Origin: Aquificales bacterium
GTDB taxonomy: Bacteria > Aquificota > Aquificia > Aquificales > QOAS01
Assembly (NCBI GenBank): GCA_027036735.1
Contig: JALWDU010000045.1
Location: 1-40,299, forward strand
Length of the DNA: 40,299 nt
Reading direction: 5' to 3'
The notes beneath the pieces were generated by a model. It saw nothing but the letters and a program-made list of their open reading frames with translations. It had not been told where the DNA came from and made no database searches. Within the stretch, counting starts at the first letter, position 1, and the number at the start of each line of letters is the position of its first letter. This document shows positions 34,200-39,416 of this stretch, piece by piece. The position numbers and the translations under genes were made by a program.

Positions 34200-34472
34200 A
34201 TGGCTACGGCTATGGAATTGGAAGTTGCAAAAGATACATTTGAGAAGGAGTTTCCCAATGTTGAAGAAAAGCTTTCCAAACAACTAGCCACAAAGGAGGA
34301 CATTTATAAAGTCAAAGAGGAACTTTTTCAGGCAAAGGAGGAGTTAAAACGGGACATTAACAGAATCGAAAAGGAACTTTTAACCGTAAAAATTCTCCTA
34401 TGGGTGGTAGTTGTGCTTACAGCCGCCTCTTTCTTTCCCCAACTTCTCCATCTGCTACGCTTTATTAAATAA
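34200..34472 (+). CDS. Small coiled-coil protein with C-terminal membrane anchor
   Basis: A 90-residue protein of unknown function. Residues 5-65 are a heptad-rich coiled coil (TKEDIYKVKEELFQAKEELKRDINRIEKELLTVK). Residues 66-84 (ILLWVVVVLTAASFFPQLL) form one membrane helix, so it is tail-anchored. The ATKEDIxxVKEEL pattern recalls DUF1640/CCDC90-like bacterial proteins. Start supported by GGGAGG eight bases upstream. It is a single gene, divergent from the permease and followed by a terminator. Its A-rich codon use is slightly unlike that of its neighbours. Confidence 0.65.
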   Translation: MATAMELEVAKDTFEKEFPNVEEKLSKQLATKEDIYKVKEELFQAKEELKRDINRIEKELLTVKILLWVVVVLTAASFFPQLLHLLRFIK

Positions 34473-34523: not shown

Positions 34524-35390
34524 TTAGTGGGAGGCATTAACGGAAATTTTGTCGACGGGAATTATGTGGAAGGCGAGCCCCGACTGTTTGGCGTCGTAAC
34601 CGAGGGCGTAGGCGAGCAGTTCGGGCAGATAAATGGAGGGAACTTTATCCTCTGTGGGAGCCATATCCTGGTAGATATCCTGCGCCTTGAAGCAGAGCGG
34701 ACAGGGAGTGACGAGCATTTCCGCCCCCGCCCTTTTTGCCCCTTGGGGGGCTTTTACCACCTTTTTGAGGGCTATATCCTTGTTGGTGTAAAAGGAGTGG
34801 TATCCGCAACAGACGTCGCTACCCTCGTAGTCCTTAACCGGTTCCGCCCCGAGGGCTTCGATTAATTCCTCCAACCCTTGGGGGTTTTCGCTGTCGACCA
34901 CCGCCACCTCTTTGGGATACTTGATATGACACCCGTAGTAGGTCGCTATCTTCCAACCCTTTAGGGGTCTCCTTACCCTCTCCCTAATGGTGTCGATACC
35001 TACCTCCTCAACGAGGTAGGGGAGAATGTGCCATATCTTTGCGGTTCCTTTATATTCGAGTCCCTCCTCGGCGAGGAGTTTGTTTATCTCCTCCCTGAGT
35101 TCGGGGTCGCTATCCAACGCGTGTTTGGTCTTTGCCAGAACCATATAGCAGGTGTTGCAGGAAACGAGCAGGTCGAGACCTTCCTTCTCGGCGAGGGCTA
35201 TATTCCTGGCATTTATCGAATAAACCAAAAAGCGGTTGCTCTCCTCTATTGTGTTTCCGCCGCAACAGGTAGTCCTCTCGAGGAGCTTTATGTCAACGCC
35301 CAAGTCGGCGAATACCTTTTTTAGGGTATCGAACATATGGGCGTCGGGACCCTGAAAACAGCACCCCTGATAGAAACCTATCGTTTTCAT
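34524..35390 (-). CDS. HdrB-like CCG-domain subunit of succinate dehydrogenase/fumarate reductase (SdhE/SdhC-like)
   Basis: A 288-residue protein with two complete CCG motifs. The first is CCFQG (residues 10-11), TTCCGGNT (about 42-43) and SCNTC (about 78-81). The second is YYGCHIKYP, SDVCCGYH and PCPLC. In HdrB of methanogens these bind an unusual iron-sulfur cluster that reduces disulfides. In non-classical type E succinate:quinone reductases (archaea, some bacteria) a similar subunit replaces the cytochrome b anchor. Its place in an operon with sdhA and sdhB supports that role. No membrane helix is seen. Start supported by AAGGAGGG. It is last in the operon. Confidence 0.88.
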   Translation of the reverse strand: MKTIGFYQGCCFQGPDAHMFDTLKKVFADLGVDIKLLERTTCCGGNTIEESNRFLVYSINARNIALAEKEGLDLLVSCNTCYMVLAKTKHALDSDPELREEINKLLAEEGLEYKGTAKIWHILPYLVEEVGIDTIRERVRRPLKGWKIATYYGCHIKYPKEVAVVDSENPQGLEELIEALGAEPVKDYEGSDVCCGYHSFYTNKDIALKKVVKAPQGAKRAGAEMLVTPCPLCFKAQDIYQDMAPTEDKVPSIYLPELLAYALGYDAKQSGLAFHIIPVDKISVNASH

Positions 35391-35504
35391 AACAAAACCC
35401 TCCTTGGGTTGGTGTTTGATGGTTCCCCTGCGGTGGAACCCCTTACCTCTTTAATACCTCCTATAGGTCTGCAAATGCAAGGGCTAACCCCATAGGGGTG
35501 GTTA

Positions 35505-35903
35505 TCAACACCTCACCTCCTGCGTAAAGGCGATTATTCCCCCCTCGAGGGAATAGGCGTTTTCAAAACCAACCCTTCGCAAAAAGGCGGTCGCCACCAG
35601 AGACCTAACCCCCGCACGGCAGGCTACGACGATTTTGTAGTCCCCGTAGGAGGCGAGCTTTTCTATGTTTTCCCTTTCGAAGAGTCGGTTCATAGGTATC
35701 CTCAAGGTGTTTTCGTAGGTAAATCCGACCAAAGATGTTTCTTCGGGAGTCCTTATGTCCACTATTAGGACCTTTTCCCCCTTCCTTATCCAGTGGAGGA
35801 GCGCCGGGGGTTTCACCCTGCAGGGTTGCTTTGCCAAATATTCGGAGGTGAAAAAGGAAAAGAAATCTTCGAGTCTTTCAACCTCTCGCCAGTCTATTTT
35901 CAT
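35505..35903 (-). CDS. Rhodanese-domain sulfurtransferase
   Basis: A 132-residue single rhodanese domain with about 35 extra N-terminal residues. The core runs from VLIVDIRTPEE (about residues 45-55) to the active loop VVACRAGVRSLVA (catalytic Cys about 94) and FENAYSLEGGIIAF. The CRAGVRS loop is the six-residue type linked with sulfur, not arsenate or phosphate, substrates. It lies between sdhB (9 bp upstream) and the HdrB-like gene in the same operon. A role in iron-sulfur cluster supply or disulfide chemistry of the CCG subunit is possible but unproven. Confidence 0.86.
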   Translation of the reverse strand: MKIDWREVERLEDFFSFFTSEYLAKQPCRVKPPALLHWIRKGEKVLIVDIRTPEETSLVGFTYENTLRIPMNRLFERENIEKLASYGDYKIVVACRAGVRSLVATAFLRRVGFENAYSLEGGIIAFTQEVRC

Positions 35904-35912
35904 AACCCTACC

Positions 35913-37031
35913 CTACTTAGTTCCGAAAAATTCCGAGAGCTTTTTCCAAAAGCGGGTGAAGAAGTCTTCCCTCTGCTCCTCGAACCGCTCGGTTATCTTG
36001 GTGCATACGTCGGCGTTGAAGACCTCCTCGACCCTCTTGTCTATCCTCCTAACGTGGTGGAAGTCTATATCCAGGTGGGGTTTCTTCTCCTTCATAACCT
36101 CCAAGATGAGGTCTCTGAATTCCAACAGTCCCGGCAAGGGTTTGGGAACCTCCCAGACCTCCGCGCCGCGCTCCCTGAACTTGTTTATCAAAGGTGTGGG
36201 GTCTACGCCGTAAACCTCCTCCGGCAAAGAGAGCCTGTTTATCTGACCGGTGGCGTATATCCAATCGACGAAATGTTGGAGTTTCTTGACTCCGGGGTAG
36301 TCCTTAAAGCCGTATTCGGCGGCTATACCGCGGACGTTTTGAATGTCCTCGGCGGGTCTCACCCCTTTGGGACATACGTATATACACTTCTGACACTGGA
36401 CACAGCTCCAGATATCCCCCACATCCATGGCGTTTTTAACCATTTCCCTCTTGTGCTCTTCCTTCACGCGGCTGTCGACGACGTAGCGGTAGACCCTCGA
36501 AAAGGCGTAGGGACCCGCGTATTTGGGGTCGTCCATAACGGCTTCGCAGCTGCCATAGCAGGCGAAGCACAGAATGCAGTTTGTGGGTCTTTCGTATTGT
36601 TTGACCTCCTCAGGGGGAATTCTGTACTCCTTCTCGGGGATGGGTTCTTTGGGTTCGCACCAGGTTTGGAGCTTTTTGAGACTCTCAAAGGGTTGGTCGT
36701 GGTCTACAACCAAATCCCTTATGGGTTTTAGGAAATTTAGGGGTTCGACCGTTATAGGTTTCCCATTTGCCTTTTCGACCAATTCCTTAAAGGGGGTTTT
36801 ACAGGCGAGGCGGGAAATTCCGTTAACCTTAACGGCACAGGAACCGCAAACCGCCGCGCGGCAGAAGAACCTAAATCCCAAAGTGGGGTCTAAATTCTCC
36901 TGTATGTAAAAGAGGGCGTCGAGCAGAGTCTGTGCTTTGTCGACGGGAACCTCGTATTCCCTGTAGTAAGGTTTTTCGTCCCTTTCGGGGTTGTATCTGT
37001 AAACCCTTAAAACAGCCCTTTCAACGGTCAT
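35913..37031 (-). CDS. sdhB: Succinate dehydrogenase/fumarate reductase iron-sulfur subunit (type E-like)
   Basis: The electron-transfer subunit of the complex. The [2Fe-2S] motif is FFCRAAVCGSCAVKVNGISRLAC (about residues 54-76). The second cluster motif is CILCFACYGSC (about 146-156). The third is CVQCQKCIYVCPKG (about 204-217). Classical SdhB has C-x5-C-x3-CP in the third motif and carries a [3Fe-4S] cluster. Here a cysteine falls within that x5 gap, as in archaeal type E enzymes where a [4Fe-4S] is proposed. At 372 residues it is much longer than the usual 230-260, because of a C-terminal extension of about 130 residues. Start supported by AGGAGG. Confidence 0.92.
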   Translation of the reverse strand: MTVERAVLRVYRYNPERDEKPYYREYEVPVDKAQTLLDALFYIQENLDPTLGFRFFCRAAVCGSCAVKVNGISRLACKTPFKELVEKANGKPITVEPLNFLKPIRDLVVDHDQPFESLKKLQTWCEPKEPIPEKEYRIPPEEVKQYERPTNCILCFACYGSCEAVMDDPKYAGPYAFSRVYRYVVDSRVKEEHKREMVKNAMDVGDIWSCVQCQKCIYVCPKGVRPAEDIQNVRGIAAEYGFKDYPGVKKLQHFVDWIYATGQINRLSLPEEVYGVDPTPLINKFRERGAEVWEVPKPLPGLLEFRDLILEVMKEKKPHLDIDFHHVRRIDKRVEEVFNADVCTKITERFEEQREDFFTRFWKKLSEFFGTK

Positions 37032-37043
37032 AACGGAGACCTC

Positions 37044-37664
37044 CTAAAGGTTTTGAGCCAAAAGCCCTTCGAGGTTTAAAACCACTCCCTCCAAAACCTC
37101 GAAGGGGTAATCCCAATTTGCCACCACCCAAGGTTGGTTATCCTTCGTTGCAACCAACACCTTTTTTGGGTCGGTTTGAACCCATATCACCCTTTCAACG
37201 CCGGCTTTTAACAAATCCTCGGTTTTGGCATTTATGTAGGATTGCCCAAAGCGTTTTTCGAAATCTTCCAAATCCACCTTTGTGTCGACCTCTATGACAA
37301 CCTTGGGTGGAATATCGATGTAGCCCTTCGGAAGGGGTTTTTTTATGTCCTCTTTCCTCCAAATGGCTATGTCGAGGTTATACCACCCACCTTGAGGTAG
37401 TTTGAAGCCTACTTCGTTTGTGGCTACAAAGTAATCCCTACCCAGATGTTGCCAGAGGTAGGCGGCGATTAATTGAACCAAAACCCCTTGCAAAAACCCG
37501 CTACCCATAACGGCCTCCAAAGGGAGTTCGCCGCTCAAGACCCTTTTGTAGTCTCTGTAATAGATAGGTCTCTTTCCCCTCCTCTCGTAGGTGAGGAGTT
37601 TTAAAAGTTTCCTCCTTTCGGTGTTATTCCTTTCGGTCTTCCCTTTAAGTTTTGCCGTTTTCAT
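37044..37664 (-). CDS. Uma2-family (DUF820) putative PD-(D/E)XK nuclease
   Basis: A 206-residue protein. The N-terminal 45 residues are basic (MKTAKLKGKTERNNTERRKLLKLL). The core matches the Uma2 fold: GFLQGVLVQLIAAYLWQHLG, VGFKLPQGGWYNLDIAIWRKED with the catalytic-type Asp, PPKVVIEVDTKVDLEDFEKR with the Glu, and KTEDLLKAGVERVIWVQTDPKKV. Uma2 proteins are widespread and often multicopy in some phyla; their role is not settled. It lies between sdhA (51 bp) and sdhB (12 bp), in the same direction, which is an odd place for a nuclease gene and suggests insertion into the operon. Confidence 0.78.
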   Translation of the reverse strand: MKTAKLKGKTERNNTERRKLLKLLTYERRGKRPIYYRDYKRVLSGELPLEAVMGSGFLQGVLVQLIAAYLWQHLGRDYFVATNEVGFKLPQGGWYNLDIAIWRKEDIKKPLPKGYIDIPPKVVIEVDTKVDLEDFEKRFGQSYINAKTEDLLKAGVERVIWVQTDPKKVLVATKDNQPWVVANWDYPFEVLEGVVLNLEGLLAQNL

Positions 37665-37715
37665 ACACTCCCTCCGGAGGCTTTAGGAAAAGAAATACCC
37701 CCTTAGGGGGAAAGG

Positions 37716-39416
37716 TTAATATTTCCTCTCCTGCGGTTGCCATTTGGTTATAACGACCTCCTTCCACCCGTGTTGGAGGGTTCCGTCCTCTTTTCTCCTC
37801 ACAACGGAGTGTTTGAGGTAGTTTTCGTCGTCCCTATTGGGGTAATCGAGTCTGTAGTGCGCACCGCGGGACTCTTTGCGCTCTATGGCGCAGAGGGCGG
37901 TCACCTCCGCGAGGTCGAGAAGGTTCAAAAATTCCAAGGTCTGTATTAGGTTTAGGTTGAAACGCTTCGACCTATCGGTGACGGCGAGACCGCTCTTAGC
38001 CCTCTCTTTTAGCTCCCTTATCCGCTCGAGAGCCTCAACCATCGGCTTCTCTTCGCGGAATATACCCACCTTCGAAGCCATTACATCGCCCATCTCCCTG
38101 CGGAGGTCGGCGAGCTTCTCTTTAGGCTCCTTGTCCATCAGGGAGCTTATAAACTCCTCTTCCCTTTTTACATATTCCCCACCTTCGGTGGGAAGGTGTT
38201 CCACACCCACAACATACTCGGCGGCGTGTTCGGCGGTTATCTTACCGAAGACGAGGATATCGAGAAGCGAGTTTCCGCCGAGTCGGTTTGCCCCGTGAAC
38301 CGATATGCAGGCGGCTTCACCGGCGGCGTAAAGCCCCTTTATTTCGGTCTGCCCGTATTTGTCGGTGTCTATTCCACCCATCGAGTAGTGGGCGGTCGGT
38401 CTAATGGGAATGGGCTCTTTTACCGGGTCAACACCTTCGTAAACCCTTGCGTGCTCCACCGTTTGGGGTAGGCGCTCCATAAGTTTCTTCTCGCCCAGGT
38501 GCCTTAGGTCTAGGCAGATGTAGTCGCCCTTCTCTCCGCAACCGCGCCCCTCGAGAATCTCCCTTTCAATCGAGCGCGCGACTATATCCCTCGGCGCGAG
38601 CTCCATCTTCTCGGGGGCGTATTTTTTCATAAAGCGTTCGCCGTCCTTGTTAATCAGATATCCGCCCTCACCCCTCGCACCTTCGGTTATTAGTATTCCG
38701 GTCTTCCTCAAGCCGGTGGGGTGGAACTGGACGAACTCCATATCCTTAAGAGGCAGACCCGCCCTCAAAACGGCAGCGGTTCCGTCCCCCGTATTCCCCA
38801 AAGCGTTGGAAGTCCTGTTCCAATACATACGGGCGTGACCGCCGGTGGCGAGGATGACCGCCTTAGCCTTGATAAAGTGGACACCCCCGTTCCTTATATC
38901 CCATGCGGTTACGCCCAAAACCCTTTCCCCGTTGTGGATTACGTTTAATAGAAACCACTCGTTGAGGAACTCCACCCCCTGCTTTAGGGTTTGGTCGTAG
39001 AGGGTGTGGAGTATCACCAGCCCTGTCCGGTCGGCGGCGTAGCATGTTCTGGGGAATGAAGCACCACCGAAGGGTCTCTGCGCTATCCTTCCGTCGGGTA
39101 ATCTCGAGAAGGGAACCCCCCTATGCTCTATGTCGTAGATTATCTCGGGTCCCATTTTGGTCATAATCTCGACCGCATCTTGGTCGGCGAGGTAGTCGGA
39201 ACCCTTTACGGTGTCGAAGGCGTGCTTTTCGGGGCTGTCCTCGGCTACGTTTGCCAGAGCGGCGTTAATTCCGCCTTCGGCGGCACCGGTATGGGAACGG
39301 ACGGGATAGACTTTCGTCATAACGCCCACTTTTAGGTTGGGATTTTGGGAAGCCCAGAGGGCGGCGTAAAGACCCGCTCCGCCCGCACCGACGATAAGAA
39401 TGTCGTATTCGAGCAT
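37716..39416 (-). CDS. sdhA: Succinate dehydrogenase/fumarate reductase flavoprotein subunit
   Basis: The catalytic subunit that interconverts succinate and fumarate with covalent FAD. The 566-residue protein has the N-terminal dinucleotide fold DILIVGAGGAGLYAALWA, the flavin-linking histidine region VRSHTGAAEGGINAAL (about residues 43-58), the substrate-site segments QRPFGGASFPRTCYAADRTG and EFVQFHPTGL, and the C-terminal HGANRLGGNSLLDILVFG. The track start is TTG 39422; ATG 39416 is preferred, with GGGAGG ten bases upstream. In a reductive TCA cycle it would act as a fumarate reductase; direction cannot be read. It is first in the five-gene operon. Confidence 0.95.
   Translation of the reverse strand: MLEYDILIVGAGGAGLYAALWASQNPNLKVGVMTKVYPVRSHTGAAEGGINAALANVAEDSPEKHAFDTVKGSDYLADQDAVEIMTKMGPEIIYDIEHRGVPFSRLPDGRIAQRPFGGASFPRTCYAADRTGLVILHTLYDQTLKQGVEFLNEWFLLNVIHNGERVLGVTAWDIRNGGVHFIKAKAVILATGGHARMYWNRTSNALGNTGDGTAAVLRAGLPLKDMEFVQFHPTGLRKTGILITEGARGEGGYLINKDGERFMKKYAPEKMELAPRDIVARSIEREILEGRGCGEKGDYICLDLRHLGEKKLMERLPQTVEHARVYEGVDPVKEPIPIRPTAHYSMGGIDTDKYGQTEIKGLYAAGEAACISVHGANRLGGNSLLDILVFGKITAEHAAEYVVGVEHLPTEGGEYVKREEEFISSLMDKEPKEKLADLRREMGDVMASKVGIFREEKPMVEALERIRELKERAKSGLAVTDRSKRFNLNLIQTLEFLNLLDLAEVTALCAIERKESRGAHYRLDYPNRDDENYLKHSVVRRKEDGTLQHGWKEVVITKWQPQERKY

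Follow-up and report, generated by a model that had tools for sequence, protein, structure and literature searches.

We analyzed a window of 40,299 nucleotides, the whole of contig JALWDU010000045.1 as taken from the Aquificales bacterium assembly GCA_027036735.1. A sequence-only reading had placed a five-gene operon for a type E-like succinate dehydrogenase/fumarate reductase (complex II) at 34524-39416, and each of the five open reading frames (ORFs) was present there on the minus strand (Table 1). The intergenic gaps, in the order sdhA-Uma2-sdhB-rhodanese-sdhE, are 51, 12, 9, and 114 bases. Family searches (Pfam/NCBIfam) identified SdhA (TIGR01812, 809 bits), Uma2 (PF05685, 32 bits), SdhB (TIGR00384, 219 bits, with Fer2_3 and Fer4), the rhodanese (PF00581, 38 bits), and SdhE (PF02754, two CCG domains). 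Since sdhA, sdhB, and sdhE are kept at 83-99% identity in other genomes of the same genus, a chance arrangement of genes is of no concern. The source is a metagenome-assembled genome of 1.35 Mb in 110 contigs, 95.65% complete, so that gene absences are good but not absolute.

Table 1 Genes of the operon, listed in the order of transcription.
Feature	Coordinates	Strand	Description
sdhA/frdA flavoprotein	37716..39416	-	566 aa; ATG at 39416, GGAGG ahead of start
Uma2 ORF (PF05685)	37044..37664	-	206 aa; between sdhA and sdhB; not a core part
sdhB/frdB	35913..37031	-	372 aa; [2Fe-2S] domain, two CxxCxxCxxxC motifs, helical C-terminal extension 222-372
rhodanese-type sulfurtransferase	35505..35903	-	132 aa; active loop CRAGVRS
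sdhE (CCG x2, HdrB fold)	34524..35390	-	288 aa; putative quinone-side subunit, proposed monotopic anchor

Type E complex II is defined by a second [4Fe-4S] cluster, two CX31CCGX34CX2C repeats, the lack of heme, and amphipathic attachment to the membrane (PMC2680327, PMC3578206). The sequence-only reading had noted two full motifs in the CCG subunit, an extra cysteine in the third cluster motif of SdhB, a C-terminal SdhB extension of about 130 residues, and no gene for a cytochrome b or membrane anchor, and all four observations held. SdhE carries two complete CX~31CCGX~34CX2C motifs, and no heme b anchor gene accompanies it. Its ligand sets, C10, C42C43G, C78xxC81 and C154, C194C195G, C230xxC233, showed no variation among the 52 sequences compared. 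The AlphaFold2 model of SdhE (predicted local distance difference test score, pLDDT, 90.9) matched HdrB with a template modeling (TM) score of 0.90. In a tree with four HdrB sequences as the outgroup, all type E SdhE formed one clade (support 100/100). SdhE folds like HdrB, yet it is a type E SdhE and not an HdrB.

The third cluster motif of SdhB, C210VQC213QKC216IYVC220P (CVQCQKCIYVCP), reads CxxCxxCxxxCP with Cys213 as the additional residue, and the second Fe-S center, having four cysteines, is probably a [4Fe-4S] cluster. As a marker of type E on its own this cysteine was rejected, as the short FrdB of family f2 (Aquificaceae, assigned by exclusion) without a neighboring SdhE has it as well. 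The AlphaFold2 model of SdhB (pLDDT 85.9) matched classical SdhB/FrdB at a TM score of ~0.9 over the first 240 residues, its core matched E. coli FrdB at about 0.92 in a model comparison, and its structural match to HdrC was weak. At the sequence level, the second half is HdrC-like (TIGR03290, E 5.7e-7; HdrC chains also matched). After P221, 151 residues follow, compared with ~20 in short SdhB/FrdB. This extension is all-helical in the model, with low confidence toward the end, and in the window's genus an amphipathic helix of aromatic character closes it (EQREDFFTRFWKKLSEFF), with a moment of 0.59-0.66 and a per-sequence shuffle p of 0.004-0.024. The helix is possibly a membrane-surface helix, although the case is not strong. 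Separately, SdhB proteins of type E operons from Chlorobiota, Spirochaetia, and Eggerthellaceae (L118, L123, L144-L146, L151) have a third motif that departs from CxxxxxCxxxCP, and their cluster ligands may differ.

SdhA contains the motifs SHTGA (H42) and HPTG (H232), and we take the histidine of SHTGA to be the one that binds flavin adenine dinucleotide (FAD) covalently. A twin-arginine translocation (Tat) leader was not found on SdhA, which opens straight into the FAD fold at MLEYDILIVGAGGAG; the protein should thus be cytoplasmic.

The SdhC/D membrane anchor that characterizes the classical types A-D was not found in the window set. No match to Sdh_cyt (PF01127) was detected anywhere in its own genome, and no transmembrane-like segment was found in SdhA, SdhB, or SdhE (maximum KD19 1.41). 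At 34200-34472 on the plus strand, convergent with sdhE, lies a small coiled-coil protein with one C-terminal transmembrane segment. It was considered as the missing anchor and rejected, being on the opposite strand and detected in the window and in G111, its nearest relative, but nowhere else. A second kind of complex II was seen in genus g26 of Desulfurobacteriaceae (G123:C2:201197-203073, L182), where an extra SdhA, 49% identical to that of the window, stands beside Sdh_cyt-like small membrane ORFs.

The distribution of these genes was surveyed in 136 Aquificota genomes, and 78 bacterial loci were retrieved. The window's family (f1) has a single genus in the collection; it belongs to the same order as f2 and f3 (Hydrogenothermaceae, matched to named loci) and to the same class as f5 (Desulfurobacteriaceae). 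Within the genus, the window SdhB and SdhE have relatives of 83-98% identity in the other genomes. Most f5 genomes carry two back-to-back sdhABE operons. The SdhB of copy 1 has 371 aa and is 53-57% identical to that of the window; the SdhB of copy 2 has 321 aa and about 40% identity. SdhB-SdhE pairs with SdhA mostly elsewhere were found in f3, and a short SdhB with no adjacent SdhE in f2. Outside Aquificota, SdhABE operons occurred in Chlorobiota, Bacillota, Spirochaetota, and Eggerthellaceae. Bacterial type E enzymes have been described in Wolinella and Campylobacter (PMC2680327) and in Nitrospina (PMC3578206), as well as for cyanobacteria and green sulphur bacteria. Type E is common in bacteria and already published (PMC2680327, PMC3578206). 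Thus, of the claim that archaeal traits occur here in a bacterium, the type E-like set stands, but it is no surprise.

The trees, which hold bacterial sequences only apart from the four HdrB, bear out the type E-like assignment and allow it to be put more firmly: SdhE falls with bacterial type E and away from HdrB, and SdhB falls with the SdhE-linked SdhB. In the core-only SdhB tree, f2 FrdB stood apart from every SdhE-linked SdhB, including that of the window (SH-like approximate likelihood ratio test, SH-aLRT, 97), and the phylogenetic check against short FrdB therefore separates the two. A grouping of f2 FrdB with the window branch in the full-length tree (84/86) was rejected, as the core-only tree splits them; it probably arose from missing C-terminal columns. 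The SdhA, SdhB, and SdhE trees all placed the window set with f5 copy 1, with an SH-aLRT of 99 for SdhA and a weaker 80-88 for SdhB. The SdhE clade of the window and f5 copy 1, which also holds f5 genus g26, was supported at 100/100.

Copy 1 corresponds to the frdABC/fdrABC operon of Desulfurobacterium and Thermovibrio with the 371-aa FrdB, the closest known system. It has the same three subunits in identical order (identity to the window of 71-74% for SdhA, 53-57% for SdhB, and 57-63% for SdhE) and shares the C-terminal SdhB extension and the SdhE branch. It differs in having another, ordinary type E operon as its back-to-back neighbor, whereas the window has a single set with Uma2 and rhodanese inserted. 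With the type E enzymes of Sulfolobus/Acidianus and Nitrospina, compared by features in the literature, the window has in common the extra SdhB cysteine, the two full SdhE CCG motifs, and the lack of a heme anchor. The 8-methylmenaquinol:fumarate reductase MfrABE of Wolinella and Campylobacter is likewise an SdhABE set without heme. The window set, for which fumarate reduction is presumed, differs from it by the leaderless SdhA and by the scores of its three subunits, each far under the MFR equivalog cut-off (611/1100, 168/600, and 180/500 bits). A sequence search of the PDB turned up no solved type E complex II; the best matches were HdrB for SdhE and classical SdhB for SdhB. The window operon is a new instance of an already known bacterial type, and it is mostly ordinary save for the divergent SdhE branch.

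Taken together, we consider it likely that the product of the operon is a cytoplasmic complex II of type E (SdhABE) that serves the reductive tricarboxylic acid (rTCA) cycle as a menaquinol:fumarate reductase. Menaquinol would be oxidized at the membrane surface by SdhE with its two HdrB-like CCG domains. Electrons would pass from SdhE to the two Fe-S centers of SdhB, then to its [2Fe-2S] cluster and to the FAD of SdhA, where fumarate would be reduced to succinate. We infer the direction of the reaction, quinol as the donor, the cluster types, and the membrane attachment. The genome contains one SdhB and one SdhE, and the operon must therefore serve the cycle. The genome also encodes an ATP-citrate lyase Citrate_bind domain (288 bits) and MqnA/MqnD-type proteins of menaquinone synthesis (268 and 137 bits). 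Based on these three findings, a cytoplasmic, monotopic menaquinol:fumarate reductase is the best account.

Published work on relatives bears on the donor. Low H2 raised the abundance of two neighboring fdrABC operons in D. thermolithotrophum HR11 alongside other rTCA enzymes; the authors proposed menaquinol as the fdrABC electron donor, and the genus is reported to have MK-7H6 (PMC12724263). In T. ammonificans, frdAB corresponds to Theam_1270-1275, found in the genome and the proteome (PMC5441870). The sequence-only reading had called the electron partner not evident, and a partial answer is now at hand: menaquinone genes are present, and the literature links the Desulfurobacterium orthologues to menaquinol (PMC12724263).

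The following points weigh against a menaquinol-linked, membrane-attached enzyme. The published menaquinol assignment is itself a deduction from proteomics, and that study gives no indication as to which fdrABC operon is copy 1, the counterpart of the window's copy (PMC12724263). The amphipathic end of SdhB is modest in the window's genus and weak or without a clear helix in Desulfurobacteriaceae, and no strong membrane or amphipathic helix was detected in SdhE. Furthermore, the replacements at C11, Tyr158, and Phe234 of SdhE, judged from the alignment, suggest that the electron donor could differ.

These replacements belong to the window/f5 copy 1 branch, which arises inside the type E SdhE clade on a stem of 0.96 changes/site. 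Its apparent neighbor is Chlorobiota (94/88), where long branches meet, and this placement is not to be trusted. The branch has 17 SdhE positions with fixed residues that are rare elsewhere. Among them, C11 adjoins ligand C10; Y158, four residues after ligand C154, is Arg in 34/34 other bacterial type E SdhE and Lys in HdrB; and F234, directly after ligand C233, is His or Gln elsewhere. Branch-specific residues were not significantly enriched near the ligands (9/17 within four residues against 20/60 other conserved positions, p 0.12), and their clustering is thus not itself evidence. It is conceivable, but unlikely, that the branch represents a sub-type of complex II with a function of its own, in which the SdhE site was rebuilt after duplication (Cys11, Tyr158, Phe234) for a different carrier, for instance a different quinone or a soluble one, and which has become the sole complex II in the window's genus.

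Less probable still is that the divergent SdhE is fed by a soluble donor, such as a thiol pair, ferredoxin, or a sulfurtransferase-linked persulfide, making the enzyme a soluble fumarate reductase mechanistically nearer to TfrAB or HdrBC. The HdrB fold of SdhE with the ligands of both clusters intact, the HdrC-like second half of SdhB, the branch-specific changes beside the clusters, and the rhodanese gene in the operon of 5/7 genomes are all compatible with such a donor. However, the operon lacks a rhodanese in the Desulfurobacteriaceae that share this SdhE branch, the genome has no HdrB paralogue (its only other CCG protein is GlcF-like), the clustering near the ligands is not significant, and SdhE lies within type E SdhE rather than with HdrB. 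Relative to methanogen HdrBC, from which the SdhE tree splits at 100/100, the window SdhE is joined to a complex II module with SdhA and the [2Fe-2S] domain of SdhB. In methanogen TfrAB, the CCG domains are fused to TfrB, whereas in the window they form a separate protein; SdhB matched the TfrB model at only 6-222 of 488 positions (152 bits against a cut-off of 385).

Operation in the forward direction as a succinate dehydrogenase is improbable to a greater degree, as the genome has ATP-citrate lyase and menaquinone genes, the related operons rise with rTCA enzymes at H2 limitation (PMC12724263), and a low-potential quinone favors fumarate reduction. That the operon encodes a variant of the soluble, NADH-dependent FrdABCDE known from Hydrogenobacter/Aquifex is hardly tenable: the phylum, the cycle, and the extra cysteine of short f2 FrdB are shared, but f2 FrdB splits from SdhE-linked SdhB in the core-only tree, f2 SdhA forms a separate clade, and FrdC/D/E of Aquifex are different proteins whose loci are scattered (PMC10052474), whereas the window SdhE is in the operon.

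The remaining two genes had been described as accessory. Both are present, but neither is a conserved part of the enzyme. Uma2 is at the locus in 2/7 genomes of the genus and was rejected as an accessory subunit on that ground. The rhodanese is there in 5/7 and was seen at the operon in no other family; it was rejected as a required subunit, being missing from the operon in G110, G108, and Desulfurobacteriaceae. The window rhodanese (35505-35903) shares 68% identity with that of the nearest relative (L031:9140-9541), while the neighboring sdhB, sdhE, and sdhA agree at 97-99% identity, a pattern that looks like local gene replacement. In G108, sdhE is located away from sdhAB (L162:6915-7844; L035:5919-6869), convergent to a polyprenyl synthase-like gene, and a ferrochelatase-like ORF comes after sdhB. 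The genus's operon was also found at 84-93% identity in L084 (QOAS01000150.1), titled Gammaproteobacteria bacterium, a title that is probably a mislabel.

The window set bears on the question of how the type E CCG subunit meets quinone. Desulfurobacteriaceae have a divergent copy next to an ordinary one, and the window's genus keeps the divergent copy only. This contrast offers a natural comparison for the SdhE residues that set the electron donor, and it bears equally on how electrons are fed into the reverse Krebs cycle of these autotrophs. The enzyme encoded by the operon probably lets this uncultured Aquificales bacterium run the CO2-fixing reverse Krebs cycle on menaquinol.
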